A DNA stretch of 64,000 nucleotides. It comes from Parasedimentitalea psychrophila (lineage in GTDB: Bacteria; Pseudomonadota; Alphaproteobacteria; Rhodobacterales; Rhodobacteraceae). Position numbers and translations under genes: made by a program. This document shows, piece after piece, positions 6,579 to 11,658 of this stretch (positions are counted from its first letter, which is position 1; the number at the start of each line of letters is the position of its first letter). A model generated the notes under the pieces. It was not told where the DNA came from, did no database searches, and was given only the letters and a program-made list of their open reading frames with translations. The stretch is from assembly GCF_030285785.1 (NCBI RefSeq), contig NZ_CP127247.1:1325501-1389500 (forward strand), in the 5' to 3' direction.

Positions 6579-7121
6579 ATGCGTATGATGGTAGAGGATC
6601 AACAATTGGCTGCGGCTGCAGCGGCGGGCGATGCAGAGGCGTTTTCAGCCCTGCTTGGTCGCCACTATGATCGTGTCTTCGGACTGGCCTACCGGATGAC
6701 CGGCCAGCGCGCCGAGGCCGAGGATCTGACCCAGGACATCTGCGCCGCGCTGCCCGACAAAATGGCACATTACCAGCCCAGCGCCCGCTTTAGCACCTGG
6801 CTCTACCGGGTGGTGGTCAATGCCGCCCATGACCGCCGCCGCCGCGCCGCCACCCACAACAAGGCCGCCAGCGGCTGGGGCGATTGGGAGCTGGACCGTC
6901 AGGCCGCCATCGCTGAGACCAACAGCCAGATTGACTGGCTCACCGGCGCCATGCGCGGCCTGCCCGACGATCTGCGCGACACGCTGGCGCTGATACTGGA
7001 CGAGGTAACCCATGCCGACGCCGCCGAGATCCTCCAGGTCTCGCCCGGCACCATCAGCTGGCGGGTGTCTGAGGCCAAGAAACATCTGCGCGCCCTGAAA
7101 CAACAGGAGGACGCCCCATGA
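6579..7121 (+). CDS. ECF-type RNA polymerase sigma factor
   Basis: The 180-aa protein has sigma region 2 (about residues 22-90: HYDRVFGLAYRMTG, AEDLTQDI, FSTWLYRVVVNAAHD) and region 4 (about 120-175, helix-turn-helix ILQVSPGTISWRVSEAKKHLR). These are the only two sigma domains, as in ECF factors. Three near-tandem ATG codons at 6579, 6585 and 6588 all lack a strong ribosome site, so the start is uncertain by 2-3 codons. Its stop overlaps the start of the vWA gene by 4 nt, so the two proteins are probably made together; the partner may control sigma activity. The repeats upstream may be its operator or promoter. Confidence 0.88.
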   Translation: MRMMVEDQQLAAAAAAGDAEAFSALLGRHYDRVFGLAYRMTGQRAEAEDLTQDICAALPDKMAHYQPSARFSTWLYRVVVNAAHDRRRRAATHNKAASGWGDWELDRQAAIAETNSQIDWLTGAMRGLPDDLRDTLALILDEVTHADAAEILQVSPGTISWRVSEAKKHLRALKQQEDAP

Positions 7122-9112
7122 GCGACCCCTTTGACGACTTCGATGATTTTGACGATCTGAAAACCGCCATGCGCGCCGCCACGCCGACGCCTGATGCGAC
7201 GCGCAAAGCCGACAATATCGCCCTGGCGGAAAAAAACTTTGCCGCCCGCCAAGAAAAGGCTGCGCAGCCCCGTTTCACCTCTGATCACCCGCAAAAGGGT
7301 CTCTTCAGAGGAGTAGTTTCCATGTTCAAAGCCATTTCCACCCGTCAGGCGCTCACCGCCTCAACCGCTCTGGTTGCCGTTGGGCTGTTTGCCTATCTGC
7401 CCAGCCTGCAGCAGGGCCCCGATGGGCTGACCGCTCCCAACCCTGAAGCCGCTGTTGTCGAAAGCCTCGCCGGTTCGCTTGACGGCGACGGGCGCACCCG
7501 GCTGCAAGCCACAGGGGAAGCCGAAGAACTCAGTGTGGCGCCAATGGAGGCCCCGGTTATCGCCGAGCAAGCCGACATGGCTGCGCCTGTGGACACTCTT
7601 GCCGGGCTCTCCTCATCAACCTCTGTCATGGCCAGGCCATCTGCCACAGCCAAAATGGAAGCGCGCTCGCTGCCCAGCCCTCCACCTGGATATGTCGACG
7701 ATACCCAACTGCGGATCGAGGCAGACACCGAGGCCTATCCAGACGCAGAGCCTAATCCGCTGAAAATCACCACTGATGAGCCGGTCTCGACCTTTTCAAT
7801 CGACGTCGACACCGCCTCTTATGCGATCCTGCGCTCCAGCCTCAACACTGGCCGCCTGCCCAGCCCCGAACAGGTACGGATCGAGGAAATGGTGAATTAT
7901 TTCCCCTATGACTACGCCGCTCCCCTCGAAGAAGTGCCGTTTTCAACCCGTGCCACGGTGATCGCCACCCCATGGAACCCGGACACACAATTGGTGCACA
8001 TCGCGCTGCAGGGCGAGAAACCGGCGCTGGACACGCGCCCACCACTAAACCTTGTGTTCCTGATCGATACATCGGGCAGCATGGATGCTCCCAACAAACT
8101 GCCCCTGCTCAAGCAGAGCTTCCAGTTGATGCTGGCCCAGCTGCGCCCCGAGGATAAGGTCGCCATCGTCGCCTATGCCGGTTCCGCCGGTCAGGTGCTC
8201 GACCCGACCCCAGCCAGCGACCGCGCCACCATCCTGGCGGCACTGGATAGGCTGGACGCAGGCGGCGCAACCGCTGGACAAGCCGGGCTGCAACAGGCCT
8301 ATGCCACCGCCGAAGCCATGAGCGAGGACGGTGATGTCAGCCGCATCATTCTGGCCACCGACGGCGATTTCAACGTCGGCATCCATGACCCGGACGCGCT
8401 GAAGGATTTCATCGCCAAGAAACGTGAAACCGGCACCTATCTGTCGGTGCTGGGCTTTGGACGCGGCAATCTGGATGACGCCACCATGCAGGCGCTGGCG
8501 CAGACCGGCAACGGTCAGGCGGCCTATATCGACACCCTCTCCGAGGCGCAGAAAACGCTGGTGGATCAGCTCAGCGGCGCCTTGTTCCCGATTGCCAATG
8601 ACGTCAAGATCCAGGTCGAGTTCAACCCCGCCCAGATCGCCGAATACCGGCTGATCGGCTATGAAACCCGCGCCCTGAACCGCGAGGATTTCAACAACGA
8701 CCGGGTCGACGCCGGCGAAATCGGCGCTGGCCATTCGGTGACCGCGATCTATGAGATCACCCCGGTTGGCAGCCCGGCCCGGCTGAGTGACCCGCTGCGC
8801 TATCAAGCCGCGGAAGAGACCGCGACCAGCGCAGAGTACGGTTTCCTGCGGCTGCGCTACAAACGCCCCGGCGAGCACACCAGCAACCTGATCGAAACCC
8901 CGATCCTGCCCGGCGGCGAGGCCACCCCGGACATGGTATTCGCCAGTGCCATTGCCGGCTTTGGCCAGCTGCTGCAGAACAGCCCTTACTTGGGCAACTG
9001 GTCCTACGCTCAGGCGATTGACCTGGCCAATGGTGCCAAAGGCGATGATGCTTTCGGCTACCGCGCTCAGGCGGTGCAACTGATGCGGCTGGCACAGAGT
9101 CTCAGCCAATAG
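7118..9112 (+). CDS. Membrane-anchored von Willebrand factor A protein, YfbK-type
   Basis: The protein has 664 aa. An acidic DDF repeat begins it (residues 5-13), then about 65 cytoplasmic residues, one transmembrane segment (about 78-95), a variable linker, a YfbK-type N-terminal domain (TFSIDVDTASYAILRSSLN), a vWA domain with MIDAS DTSGS near 316, and a C-terminal YfbK-like domain. ATG 7118 follows GGAGG and overlaps the sigma stop. The topology places the vWA domain in the periplasm. Position after an ECF gene and a short cytosolic N-terminus suggest a fused anti-sigma and sensor role, but the N-terminus shows no recognisable anti-sigma fold (inference). Confidence 0.85.
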   Translation: MSDPFDDFDDFDDLKTAMRAATPTPDATRKADNIALAEKNFAARQEKAAQPRFTSDHPQKGLFRGVVSMFKAISTRQALTASTALVAVGLFAYLPSLQQGPDGLTAPNPEAAVVESLAGSLDGDGRTRLQATGEAEELSVAPMEAPVIAEQADMAAPVDTLAGLSSSTSVMARPSATAKMEARSLPSPPPGYVDDTQLRIEADTEAYPDAEPNPLKITTDEPVSTFSIDVDTASYAILRSSLNTGRLPSPEQVRIEEMVNYFPYDYAAPLEEVPFSTRATVIATPWNPDTQLVHIALQGEKPALDTRPPLNLVFLIDTSGSMDAPNKLPLLKQSFQLMLAQLRPEDKVAIVAYAGSAGQVLDPTPASDRATILAALDRLDAGGATAGQAGLQQAYATAEAMSEDGDVSRIILATDGDFNVGIHDPDALKDFIAKKRETGTYLSVLGFGRGNLDDATMQALAQTGNGQAAYIDTLSEAQKTLVDQLSGALFPIANDVKIQVEFNPAQIAEYRLIGYETRALNREDFNNDRVDAGEIGAGHSVTAIYEITPVGSPARLSDPLRYQAAEETATSAEYGFLRLRYKRPGEHTSNLIETPILPGGEATPDMVFASAIAGFGQLLQNSPYLGNWSYAQAIDLANGAKGDDAFGYRAQAVQLMRLAQSLSQ

Positions 9113-9437
9113 GGGGAGGCAGCCGGTCAGCCGCCCGAACCCTAGCAGCCCGAGCCCTGACAACGAGAAATCCCCTTGGTGGGCAACCAAGGGGATCCAG
9201 GCCGGGTTAACGAGGGAAATATGTTGACCCGGTCCTCACACGATCTCTGGCAGAAGATCGATCCGGAGCGTTTCCAGTTCACAGTGTATCAATTTTCACG
9301 ACCTCGCGCCACCGCATTTGATCACAGCCTTTTGCCACCGCATTTGACCACCGCATTTGAACACTGGCTCGAACGGGAAAACGGAGATTTAGATCCCCCA
9401 ACAGCCGGGCGTGTTGGGGGGGCATGTTGGCAACGCG
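9113..9437. other. Gene-free stretch with two hairpins and tandem 13-mers
   Basis: No coding region is supported in these 325 bases. An 11-bp perfect stem with a 5-nt loop lies at 9170-9196 (ATCCCCTTGGT and its complement). It may end the vWA transcript, although no T-run follows. A 9-bp stem (CCCCCAACA/TGTTGGGGG) at 9395-9420 lies just past the hsp20 stop and may end that gene. Tandem 13-mers lie at 9310-9361. Confidence 0.55.
9310..9361. repeat. Four tandem 13-bp units
   Basis: CACCGCATTTGA plus one base occurs at 9310, 9336 and 9349. A degenerate unit (CACAGCCTTTTGC) fills 9323-9335, so the array is four contiguous 13-mers. It is intergenic, between the convergent vWA and hsp20 genes. Confidence 0.7.
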
Positions 9438-9902
9438 TTAGTTGACGGTTTGTGCCTCTACCAGATTGGCTTTAGCGCTCATGGAGGAGATCTCAATGCG
9501 CCGGGGCTTCAGGGCCTCGGGCACTTCGCGTTGCAATTCGATGTGCAACATTCCATCCGCATGGCTGGCCCCTGTCACCCGAACATGATCGGCCAGGGTA
9601 AAGCGCCGCTCAAAGGCGCGGGTGGCAATGCCGCGGTGCAGATAACTGCGTTCGCTCTCGTCAGGGGCTTTCTTGGCGGTGACAATCAACCGGTTTTCCT
9701 TGACTTCCACATTCAGGTCCGCCGCGGAAAACCCGGCCACGGCAATTGAGATACGATAGGCCTCACCTTCGGTTTTTTCGATGTTGTAGGGTGGGTAACT
9801 GGGCTGCGTCCCATCTGCGCTTAGCGCCCGGTCCATCAGATCCGCGATCTGGTCAAAACCAATAGAAGCCCGGTGCAGCGGGGCAAAATCAAAACTACGC
9901 AT
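9438..9902 (-). CDS. Small heat-shock protein, Hsp20/IbpA family
   Basis: This ATP-independent holdase has 154 aa, with an alpha-crystallin domain over about residues 38-135. It shows the Hsp20 landmarks PPYNIEKTEGEAYRISIAVAGF, the G-x-L turn motif GMLHIELQREVPE and a C-terminal I-x-I anchor (IEI, in RRIEIS). Such proteins form oligomers that bind unfolding proteins. The 5' UTR is about 90 nt and contains a hairpin that would hide the ribosome site. A heat-shock type promoter lies further up, so both transcriptional and translational heat control are likely. Confidence 0.93.
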   Translation of the reverse strand: MRSFDFAPLHRASIGFDQIADLMDRALSADGTQPSYPPYNIEKTEGEAYRISIAVAGFSAADLNVEVKENRLIVTAKKAPDESERSYLHRGIATRAFERRFTLADHVRVTGASHADGMLHIELQREVPEALKPRRIEISSMSAKANLVEAQTVN

Positions 9903-9906
9903 AAAT

Positions 9907-9956
9907 TATCCTCATTCAGAGCGATATAGGGTGCGCCTTCCCGTAGTGGGACAGGC
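9907..9956 (-). promoter_or_regulatory. ROSE-like RNA thermometer in the hsp20 5' UTR
   Basis: On the transcript, UAUCGCUC pairs with GAGGAUA around a 5-nt loop (9907-9926), giving 7 bp with one bulged G. The 3' strand contains the AGGA ribosome site, 6 nt before the ATG. The UCGCU with unpaired G opposite AGGA is the hallmark of ROSE thermometers (UYGCU). A second hairpin (GCCTGTCCC/GGGAAGGC, one bulge) precedes it at 9935-9956. Folding was done by eye. Confidence 0.7.
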
Positions 9957-9999
9957 ATCTCATCACCGGACCCCATCAGAGGCGATCCGGATGACACTG

Positions 10000-10027
10000 A
10001 GATAATTACCCAATTGCGCCTTTCAAG
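10000..10027 (-). promoter_or_regulatory. Probable RpoH (sigma-32) promoter of hsp20
   Basis: Reading the minus strand: CTTGAAA (10027-10021), then ATTATCT (10006-10000), with exactly 17 nt between CTTG and ATTATCT. This fits the alphaproteobacterial RpoH pattern CTTG-N17/18-CYTATNT except for the first base of the -10. It lies about 95 nt upstream of the hsp20 start, just past the protease stop. Confidence 0.65.
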
Positions 10028-10033
10028 AGGGCC

Positions 10034-10852
10034 TCAGCCGCCGGGCCGGATGAATTTTGCACCGCTCACCCCATTGCCGCCGCCAACCCGTACCCGCTTG
10101 ATCCGCCGGTCCACCGCCGCCACTGGATTACGTCGCAGTTGCGCCTTCAACTCGGCCACCCGATCCGCCAGCTGCATGCCAAAAGCCACTTTGCGGCCCT
10201 GATAGATGCCGCCGCTTGAGACCACCGACAAGATCCGGCCGCGGCCGCCAACTTGTGAGAAGACCGGCGCACCGGAGGAGCCGAAGGTCACGTTGCAATC
10301 AATCATCATCACCTGCTGAAACTCTGCCATCAGGGTGCAGCTTCGCTGCCGCGACGGGACCTCCGCACGACCCATGCCATAAGAGGTGACAGAAATTTCG
10401 TCGCCGTAGTTGCGACCTGAATGCAGCACAAAAGGATCCGCCTCAAAGCTGCTGATCGGGTTCTCAAGCCGGATCAGCGCCACATCATGGATGACATTTT
10501 CAGCATCGGGACCACGTTCGGGGCGGTACCCCGGATGGGCCGCAATCTGCAGCGCCTGGCGTTCTGCGATGGCCCTGCCATCCTGCAATCCGGCCCGGAA
10601 CTGAATCTGGCTCACGGCGCGCAATTGCCCGTCTCTGTCATAAACGCAATGGGCTGCGGTGAGCACCAGATCCGGCGCAATCAGGGTGCCGCTGCAAAAC
10701 CCTTTTCCGGCAAAATCCAGCCGCCCCACGGCCTCCCAGCCAAGAAGATCCTCGCGGTCGGAAAGCTGGCGCAGGCTGGTACTTTCCGCCAGCGCGGCCC
10801 CGGTCAAAGCCATCGCAGCACAGGCAGCAAGAGCCTTCAGAAGCGCGCTCAT
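10034..10852 (-). CDS. Secreted trypsin-like serine protease (second of a tandem pair)
   Basis: This 272-aa protein carries a Sec signal peptide (about residues 1-22, ending ALA). Chymotrypsin-fold triad: His68 in TAAHC, Asp123 in HDVALIRL and Ser193 in GSSGAP. The GAP in place of GGP around the serine is common in bacterial glutamyl-endopeptidase-like enzymes. The C-terminus carries a basic tail and ends with GAKFIRPGG. Its start overlaps the stop of its paralogue by 4 nt. Likely periplasmic or secreted; target unknown. Confidence 0.88.
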   Translation of the reverse strand: MSALLKALAACAAMALTGAALAESTSLRQLSDREDLLGWEAVGRLDFAGKGFCSGTLIAPDLVLTAAHCVYDRDGQLRAVSQIQFRAGLQDGRAIAERQALQIAAHPGYRPERGPDAENVIHDVALIRLENPISSFEADPFVLHSGRNYGDEISVTSYGMGRAEVPSRQRSCTLMAEFQQVMMIDCNVTFGSSGAPVFSQVGGRGRILSVVSSGGIYQGRKVAFGMQLADRVAELKAQLRRNPVAAVDRRIKRVRVGGGNGVSGAKFIRPGG

Positions 10853-11658
10853 TGCTGGATGAACTTTGCGCCGGTGCTATTGCGCCCTTCGCCGACTTTC
10901 ACCCGGCCCACTCCGGGCGGCAACCGGCTGCCGATCTGCACGTCGCTCAACTGTACCCGCAGCAGATCCAGCTCCTCAGCCAGCGCCGAGCCAAGCGACA
11001 CCTGTTCGCCGTCGACCTCGGCCTTGGCTGAGACCACCGAAACGATCCGCGGCACCCCGCCGTCAAAGGAAAACACTGGCGCACCGGAAGAGCCGAAATC
11101 AACGTCGCAGGACATCACCAGCACCCCTTGCTGGCGGGCCATCACCGCGCAGACTTCCTGCAGCGAAGGCGCCTCAGCGCGGTCATAGGCATAAGAAACC
11201 ACACCGATGCGGGCGCCCTTGCCGGGCCGAACATCTGTTTCAAACGGGGTGACCGTGGTATTGCGGATGGGATGCTGCAATTGCAGCAGGGCGATATCAT
11301 TGCGCACTCGCTCGGTGGAAACCTGACCGGCATAGGTATAATCCGGATGCACCACAGCCCGGCGCACCCAGCGATAGGCCGAGGCACGCCCATTGCGCCA
11401 ACCGGCCAGAAACTCGATGGTTTCCGGCCGCAGCTGGGCCTTGGTCCGGCTATCAAACAGGCAATGGGCCGCAGTCAGCACCAGATCAGGGGCGATCAGC
11501 GCACCGGTACAAAACCCCTCTCCGTTGACATCAAGACGGCCCACAGCCTGCCATTGCCGCCCCGCATCGGTGGTGTCCATCCGCAACAACCGGCTGTCCT
11601 GTGCGGCGGCCACCAAAGGCGCCAGCGCCATCAAACATACCATCACCAATTGTCGCAA
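10849..11658 (-). CDS. Secreted trypsin-like serine protease (first of a tandem pair)
   Basis: This 269-aa paralogue of the next gene has a signal peptide (about residues 1-19), His65 in TAAHC, Asp121 in RNDIALLQL and Ser191 in GSSGAP. It shares blocks with the second protease (AVGRLD, GFCxGxLIAPDLVLTAAHC, FGSSGAPVFS) and a C-terminal tail ending GAKFIQQ. The two are likely an old tandem duplication kept as a translationally coupled pair. Neither retains a long propeptide, so they may be made active or be activated by signal peptide removal. Confidence 0.88.
   Translation of the reverse strand: MRQLVMVCLMALAPLVAAAQDSRLLRMDTTDAGRQWQAVGRLDVNGEGFCTGALIAPDLVLTAAHCLFDSRTKAQLRPETIEFLAGWRNGRASAYRWVRRAVVHPDYTYAGQVSTERVRNDIALLQLQHPIRNTTVTPFETDVRPGKGARIGVVSYAYDRAEAPSLQEVCAVMARQQGVLVMSCDVDFGSSGAPVFSFDGGVPRIVSVVSAKAEVDGEQVSLGSALAEELDLLRVQLSDVQIGSRLPPGVGRVKVGEGRNSTGAKFIQQ

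Follow-up and report, generated by a model that had tools for sequence, protein, structure and literature searches.

A ROSE-like leader of three hairpins and a heat-shock-type promoter upstream of an ibpA-like hsp20 gene in Parasedimentitalea psychrophila

The small heat-shock gene hsp20 lies on the minus strand of the 64,000-nucleotide stretch of DNA analysed here (the window), and the region upstream of it raises the question of whether its expression is set by the promoter, by the folding of the mRNA leader, or by both. The initial annotation had proposed both, reading a heat-shock promoter ahead of the gene and an RNA thermometer of the ROSE type in its 5' UTR. The argument below refers to the following features.

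9438..9902, minus strand: hsp20 (ibpA-like), 154 aa, Pfam HSP20 68.9 bits
9909..9912, minus strand: AGGA ribosome site, 6 bases upstream of the ATG, read from the sequence
9920..9924, minus strand: UCGCU, the ROSE motif facing the ribosome site, which includes the bulged G9922
9907..9926, minus strand: hairpin 3, the putative thermosensor, UAUC-g-CUC-UGAAU-GAG-GAUA, bulged G at 9922
9934..9957, minus strand: hairpin 2, UGCCU-g-UCCC-ACUAC-GGGA-AGGCG, bulged G at 9952
9966..9990, minus strand: hairpin 1, CCGGAUC-g-CC-UCUGAU-GG-GGUCCGG, bulged G at 9983
10000..10006, minus strand: -10 box ATTATCT, read from the sequence
10022..10027, minus strand: -35 box CTTGAA of a heat-shock-type promoter, CTTG being 10027-10024

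The reading frame from 9902 to 9438, with its ATG at 9902-9900, encodes a protein that shares 46% identity with E. coli IbpA and scores 149.3 bits with the NCBIfam IbpA model, below the cut-off of 212; by these matches the product is an IbpA-like Hsp20. Both promoter boxes are present on the minus strand as first described (CTTG at 10027-10024, ATTATCT at 10006-10000), separated by 17 bases, or by 15 if the count begins after CTTGAA. Their proposed match to the alphaproteobacterial heat-shock promoter holds for the upstream half, as CTTGAA-N15 agrees with the -35 box and spacing of the S. meliloti RpoH1 consensus, CTTGAA-N15-16-CCTATAT (quoted in PMC4843759), but the -10 heptamer shares only 4 of its 7 bases with CCTATAT, and CCCANAT is the form found at this box in most relatives. 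Among 97 relatives, whose selection is given below, the -35 box reads CTTG in 92 and GTTG in 5, and the spacing from TTGA to the -10 heptamer is 17 bases in 77, 16 in 14 and 12-15 in 6. All 97 carry the A and T of the -10 box, in part because the scan itself demanded these two bases together with TTGA. A plain sigma-70 promoter was sought in 9100-10120 and none was found. On the same strand, two tandem trypsin-like protease genes with a four-base overlap occupy 10034-11658, and since the first of them ends a few bases before the -35 box, read-through into hsp20 is possible; from the other side (6579-9112, plus strand), a sigma-70 region 2/4 gene and a von Willebrand/YfbK-type gene that overlap each other converge on hsp20.

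The leader of this transcript would run on the minus strand from ~9994, its putative 5' end, to the ATG at 9902, and at 37 °C it folds into three hairpins upstream of the start codon. In the terminal hairpin UCGCU with its bulged G stands opposite AGGA (9924-9920 against 9912-9909), just as had been claimed, and the upstream helper hairpin of the initial annotation is likewise present, but as two hairpins rather than one (9990-9966 and 9957-9934). We rejected the single-sequence fold as proof, with z at only -1.32 and 23 of 200 shuffles folding equally well, and because the lone sequence folds no better than many of its shuffles, the case for the leader rests on comparison. The same figures speak for an alternative, namely that the hairpins were read by chance into a GC-rich leader.

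All 8 genus genomes, that of the window among them, contain a protein match to the window's Hsp20, as do 196 of the 198 family genomes. The comparison covers 97 leaders: the window's own, those of 7 genus genomes, those of the 29 best family loci and 60 from the next matches listed, with weaker matches, one match that starts at residue 3 and 20 further regions left aside; the set is therefore one of closest relatives, not a random sample. Applied without a given structure to a MAFFT alignment of these leaders that was not fitted to any model (A1), RNAalifold returns the same three hairpins with 20 pairs, 13 of which have changed on both sides among the 97 relatives. Pairing holds in 98.0% of cells, compared with 88.5% in column shuffles, and the covariation score reaches 0.375, compared with 0.178; none of 500 column shuffles comes as high in pairing or covariation, and sliding the pairing partner by at least one base lowers pairing to 60.1% or less. 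Set against covariation that beats all 500 shuffles and all slid controls, and against the ability of a covariance model of these leaders to pick out sHsp leaders in whole genomes, the chance reading retains a negligible probability. We conclude from this sequence comparison that the three-hairpin leader is real and conserved to an extent beyond chance.

Assignment of the leader to a known class is less straightforward by score than by structure. At curated Rfam cut-offs the whole window yields one tRNA and no member of the ROSE families. A permissive search gives 20.1 bits with ROSE_2 (RF01832, gathering cut-off 65) and 16.2 bits with ROSE (RF00435, gathering cut-off 45), with both sub-threshold alignments on the correct strand and in the correct place, ending just inside the gene; the ROSE covariance models suggested as a check thus do score at the site, but far below their cut-offs. 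Neither RF00435 nor RF01832 has a match at E <= 0.01 in the genome as a whole, and the cut-offs are reached in none of the 20 relatives tried out of the 97 (best scores 33.0 bits for ROSE and 32.1 for ROSE_2). As positive controls, the E. coli ibpA leader scores 100.4 bits with ROSE_2 and two Rhizobium plasmid leaders score 66.5 and 48.5 bits with ROSE. We nevertheless file the leader as ROSE-like, since the cut-offs test two narrow seeds and the structural features of the class are each found here: it lies in the 5' UTR of a small heat-shock gene, sets a bulged-G U(U/C)GCU on the SD, has three hairpins where two to four have been described, and is homologous to characterised ROSE leaders through the model R1 described below. 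Classified by these features, the window leader is a ROSE-like element with a heat-shock-type promoter and a putative thermometer function.

Model R1 is a covariance model built from the 97 leaders only, spanning hairpin 1 to the ATG, and it scores 73.2 bits on the window leader. It also recognises the leader of E. coli ibpA, with 38.1 bits (E 2.9e-6), and a small search gave scores of 25.4 and 21.7 bits (E 6.7e-5 and 0.0004) for two plasmid leaders from rhizobia, the very two that pass the Rfam ROSE model; R1 thereby gives a sequence link between two families that Rfam lists apart. R1 matches all 80 leaders of the best protein matches among genome contigs, 7 of which are identical to one of the 97, and R1-positive genera include Ruegeria, Leisingera, Roseovarius, Sulfitobacter and Shimia. 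In a scan of the class, 81 of 289 genomes carry an R1 match at E <= 0.01, compared with 17 for Rfam ROSE (1 over its cut-off) and 2 for ROSE_2 (0 over) in the same genomes; in a scan of the phylum, 51 of 299 genomes do so at the same threshold, 6 of the 51 outside the class, and at least one family genome (G176) has no R1 match there. For 54 loci with matches other than the window's own, drawn from the class and phylum scans with up to 30 per scan, an sHsp gene starts at most 15 bases from where the R1 match ends in every case, and exactly at that point in 50. Three weak matches elsewhere in the window's own genome (17.5, 17.1 and 15.2 bits; E 3.2-9.5) were rejected, with no sHsp gene nearby. 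Comparison by covariance model thus shows that the element and the E. coli ibpA thermometer, with its three hairpins, are homologous, and that the element is the usual leader of the IbpA-type sHsp genes of the family.

The likeness to E. coli ibpA (RF01832, ROSE_2) extends to three hairpins of which the last lies on the ribosome site of an sHsp gene, to a bulged G in each hairpin of the E. coli sequence read here, and to a hairpin 2 core, GCCUGUCC/GGAAGGC, common to the window and the Rfam consensus. Unlike R1, however, the Rfam ROSE_2 model spans only hairpins 2 and 3, and in the SD hairpin E. coli carries UCUCGCUG where the window has UAUCGCUC. With rhizobial ROSE (RF00435) the window shares a hairpin 1 with a bulged G, an SD hairpin combining U(U/C)GCU and a bulged G, and the sHsp gene itself, but the rhizobial SD stem is longer and the second hairpin has no bulge (Rfam consensus and locus L247). 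The short ROSE-like thermometers of Pseudomonas ibpA, as described in a passage of PMC3669281, similarly precede an sHsp gene and combine a U(U/C)GCU facing the SD with a stable upstream hairpin, although they have two hairpins. That number is comparable to the leader of a second sHsp gene of the window's own genome, which lies outside the window (L011, G000:C1:2500581-2500934, apparent GTG start) and in which hairpin 1 and the SD hairpin can be made out by eye in 8 of 8 genus genomes. R1 scores 19.7-23.6 bits (E 0.003-0.021) on 6 of the 8 genus copies of this leader, and the genome therefore appears to have two ROSE-like leaders.

The expectation that a roseobacter example would widen the ROSE family is out of date. 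A passage of PMC3230580 (2011) mentions that in the roseobacter Nautella sp. R11 both ibpA and hspD are preceded by ROSE-like motifs, a case that resembles the present one in its clade, its two sHsp genes and the class of element, but the mention is a single sentence without sequence or structure, so that the likeness is one of description; furthermore, a 2005 survey cited in a passage of PMC4166951 puts the number of ROSE-type elements in alpha- and gamma-proteobacteria above 40. The open-access literature searched yielded nothing relevant on ROSE in Rhodobacter. Considered as a thermometer, the present leader adds another ROSE-like element to a clade from which such motifs had already been noted, and the parts worth following are the bulged G in each hairpin and the bridge between the two Rfam families.

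How the leader would respond to temperature was addressed by energy modelling. At 37 °C hairpin 3 is the weakest of the three (-5.0 kcal/mol, compared with -13.9 and -10.8 for the other two), and predicted AGGA exposure, 0.0009 at 25 °C, reaches 0.0089 at 42 °C and remains below 3% up to 45 °C. In the folding check proposed for 25-45 °C the ribosome site is thus predicted to be closed at low temperature and slightly more exposed with warming, but this behaviour is not unusual: among 300 leaders with shuffled upstream sequence, 25% match its closure at 25 °C and 29% equal or exceed its rise to 42 °C. Since shuffled leaders often behave alike, we rejected the melting predicted by the energy model as proof of thermosensing. 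These low and unexceptional exposures speak for a reading in which heat control lies in the promoter only and the hairpins either lend stability to the mRNA or persist by inheritance with no thermosensing role at present; a stabilising role has been proposed for the 5' hairpin of Pseudomonas ibpA (in a passage of PMC3669281). That reading nonetheless has to account for UCGCU, the bulged G and AGGA being kept in nearly every relative and across classes, and because stability alone would not require these elements, their conservation counts against it and makes promoter-only control improbable.

We therefore favour dual control and consider it very likely, on the strength of the promoter boxes and the conserved leader, that hsp20 is governed both by a heat-shock sigma-factor promoter and by a ROSE-like RNA thermometer. 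Stress would lead the heat-shock sigma factor to make a transcript from the boxes described above, the 5' end of which would carry two stable upstream hairpins and the weak hairpin 3; within the latter, UCGCU and its bulged G would hold the AGGA ribosome site, and upon warming hairpin 3 would open and translation start, as in characterised ROSE elements. The leader hairpins would thus probably keep the chaperone mRNA silent until the cell warms.

A feature for which temperature sensing by itself does not account is that the bulged G recurs in every hairpin. RNAalifold places one unpaired column on the 5' strand of each stem, and the base in this column is G in 97 of 97 leaders for hairpin 1, 91 of 97 for hairpin 2 and 97 of 97 for hairpin 3, while most loop columns vary. 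In the six exceptions of hairpin 2 (L051, L066, L071, L072, L075 and L086) the bulged G lies one base further along in an altered stem, as though selection acted on the bulge itself. When non-overlapping hairpins with a single bulged base on the 5' strand are counted, those with a bulged G number three in 90 of the 97 leaders and two in the remaining 7, and not one of 485 dinucleotide shuffles reaches three; the equivalent counts of leaders with three hairpins for bulged A, C and U are 0, 4 and 0 of 97. In 35 distant leaders, E. coli included, the bulge columns hold G in 35, 34 and 35 of 35 while the neighbouring pairs vary, and 32 of the 35 have three bulged-G hairpins, although these counts lean towards the model, as the leaders were found by R1 and their alignment (A3) was fitted to it.

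To avoid this lean we used protein matches to pick 59 sHsp genes from the class, a chosen subset of the matches listed that comprises 20 type-1 genes from genomes without an R1 match in the class scan, 20 type-2 genes, and 19 of the 20 listed matches below 40 bits, which are divergent sHsps. Type-1 leaders hold 2.75 bulged-G hairpins each, compared with 0.73 in their shuffles, and 13 of 20 hold at least three; for type-2 leaders the values are 2.25 and 0.89, with at least three in 7 of 20. The 19 divergent leaders have 0.47, compared with 0.66 in shuffles, and none has two. Hairpins with a bulged A, C or U number 0.50-0.95 per leader in all three sets, near their shuffles. The bulged G is not universal, the second hairpin of the rhizobial consensus and of L247 being the exception given above. 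In the portions of open-access text searched, only the bulged G opposite the SD is described, with no description of one in the upstream hairpins.

The energy model separates these bulges by position. Deletion of G9922 lowers the predicted AGGA exposure at 25 °C from 0.0009 to below 1e-8, whereas deletion of the bulged G of hairpin 1 or hairpin 2 leaves it at 0.0009, and with no predicted effect on the opening of the ribosome site the upstream bulges may serve something else. In E. coli ibpA the two upstream hairpins are described as stable between 20 and 50 °C (in a passage of PMC9450479), and the role of such upstream hairpins was called not fully understood in a passage of PMC3669281 from 2013; a conserved bulged G away from the ribosome site offers a single-base handle on that role. 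One candidate function is binding by the chaperone itself, and perhaps the upstream bulged Gs serve it. According to a passage of PMC10474464, IbpA of E. coli binds to the leader of its own mRNA and represses translation, with R93 required and Y34 also needed for binding, and the same source notes both residues in alphaproteobacterial IbpAs and suggests self-repression there. The equivalents in the window protein are R95 and Y36, and all 80 family proteins compared have both; in the accompanying set of 34 distant loci, 3 had no readable frame and were set aside. Among the 59 class genes, all 20 type-1 and all 20 type-2 proteins carry R93 and 0 of 19 divergent sHsps do, and an R1 match at E <= 0.1 is found for 18 of 20 type-1 genes, 11 of 20 type-2 genes and 0 of 19 divergent ones. 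This association between R93 and the leader is clean in the sequences compared, but it is confounded by descent and proves no contact.

On a rival reading, the leader would be first of all a protein-binding regulatory RNA, on whose bulged-G hairpins IbpA oligomers repress their own translation until protein aggregates draw IbpA off, with temperature acting mainly through that titration and the promoter. Residues needed for leader binding in E. coli are indeed kept here and throughout the family proteins, R93 and the R1 match co-occur by sHsp type, and the bulged G is conserved in the very hairpins where the model gives no effect on AGGA. However, the association follows descent, the open-access literature searched yielded no binding data for an alphaproteobacterial IbpA, ROSE leaders act as thermometers elsewhere, the SD hairpin alone suffices for thermoregulation in Pseudomonas (in a passage of PMC3669281), and rhizobial ROSE dispenses with the bulge in its second hairpin, all of which leaves this reading unlikely.

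Keeping the thermometer of the dual-control reading in place, we tentatively propose a broader scheme, which is possible but doubtful at present: the ROSE leaders of alpha- and gamma-proteobacterial IbpA-type genes would be arrays of a repeated hairpin whose 5' strand has a single bulged G, and of this hairpin only the last copy would act as a thermometer, while the upstream, non-melting copies would bind the sHsp oligomer via R93. If this were so, one leader would read both temperature and the load of protein aggregates, and the Rfam ROSE and ROSE_2 families would be partial views of one ancestral element.

Two observations from the R1 searches stand apart from these questions. Three genomes of the class scan (G457, G205 and G480) each hold two or three strong R1 matches. 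Furthermore, a contig titled Nocardioides marinus (L176) carries a Rhodobacteraceae-type hsp20 (75% identity) with an R1 match of 65.9 bits, and its assembly is probably contaminated or mislabelled.
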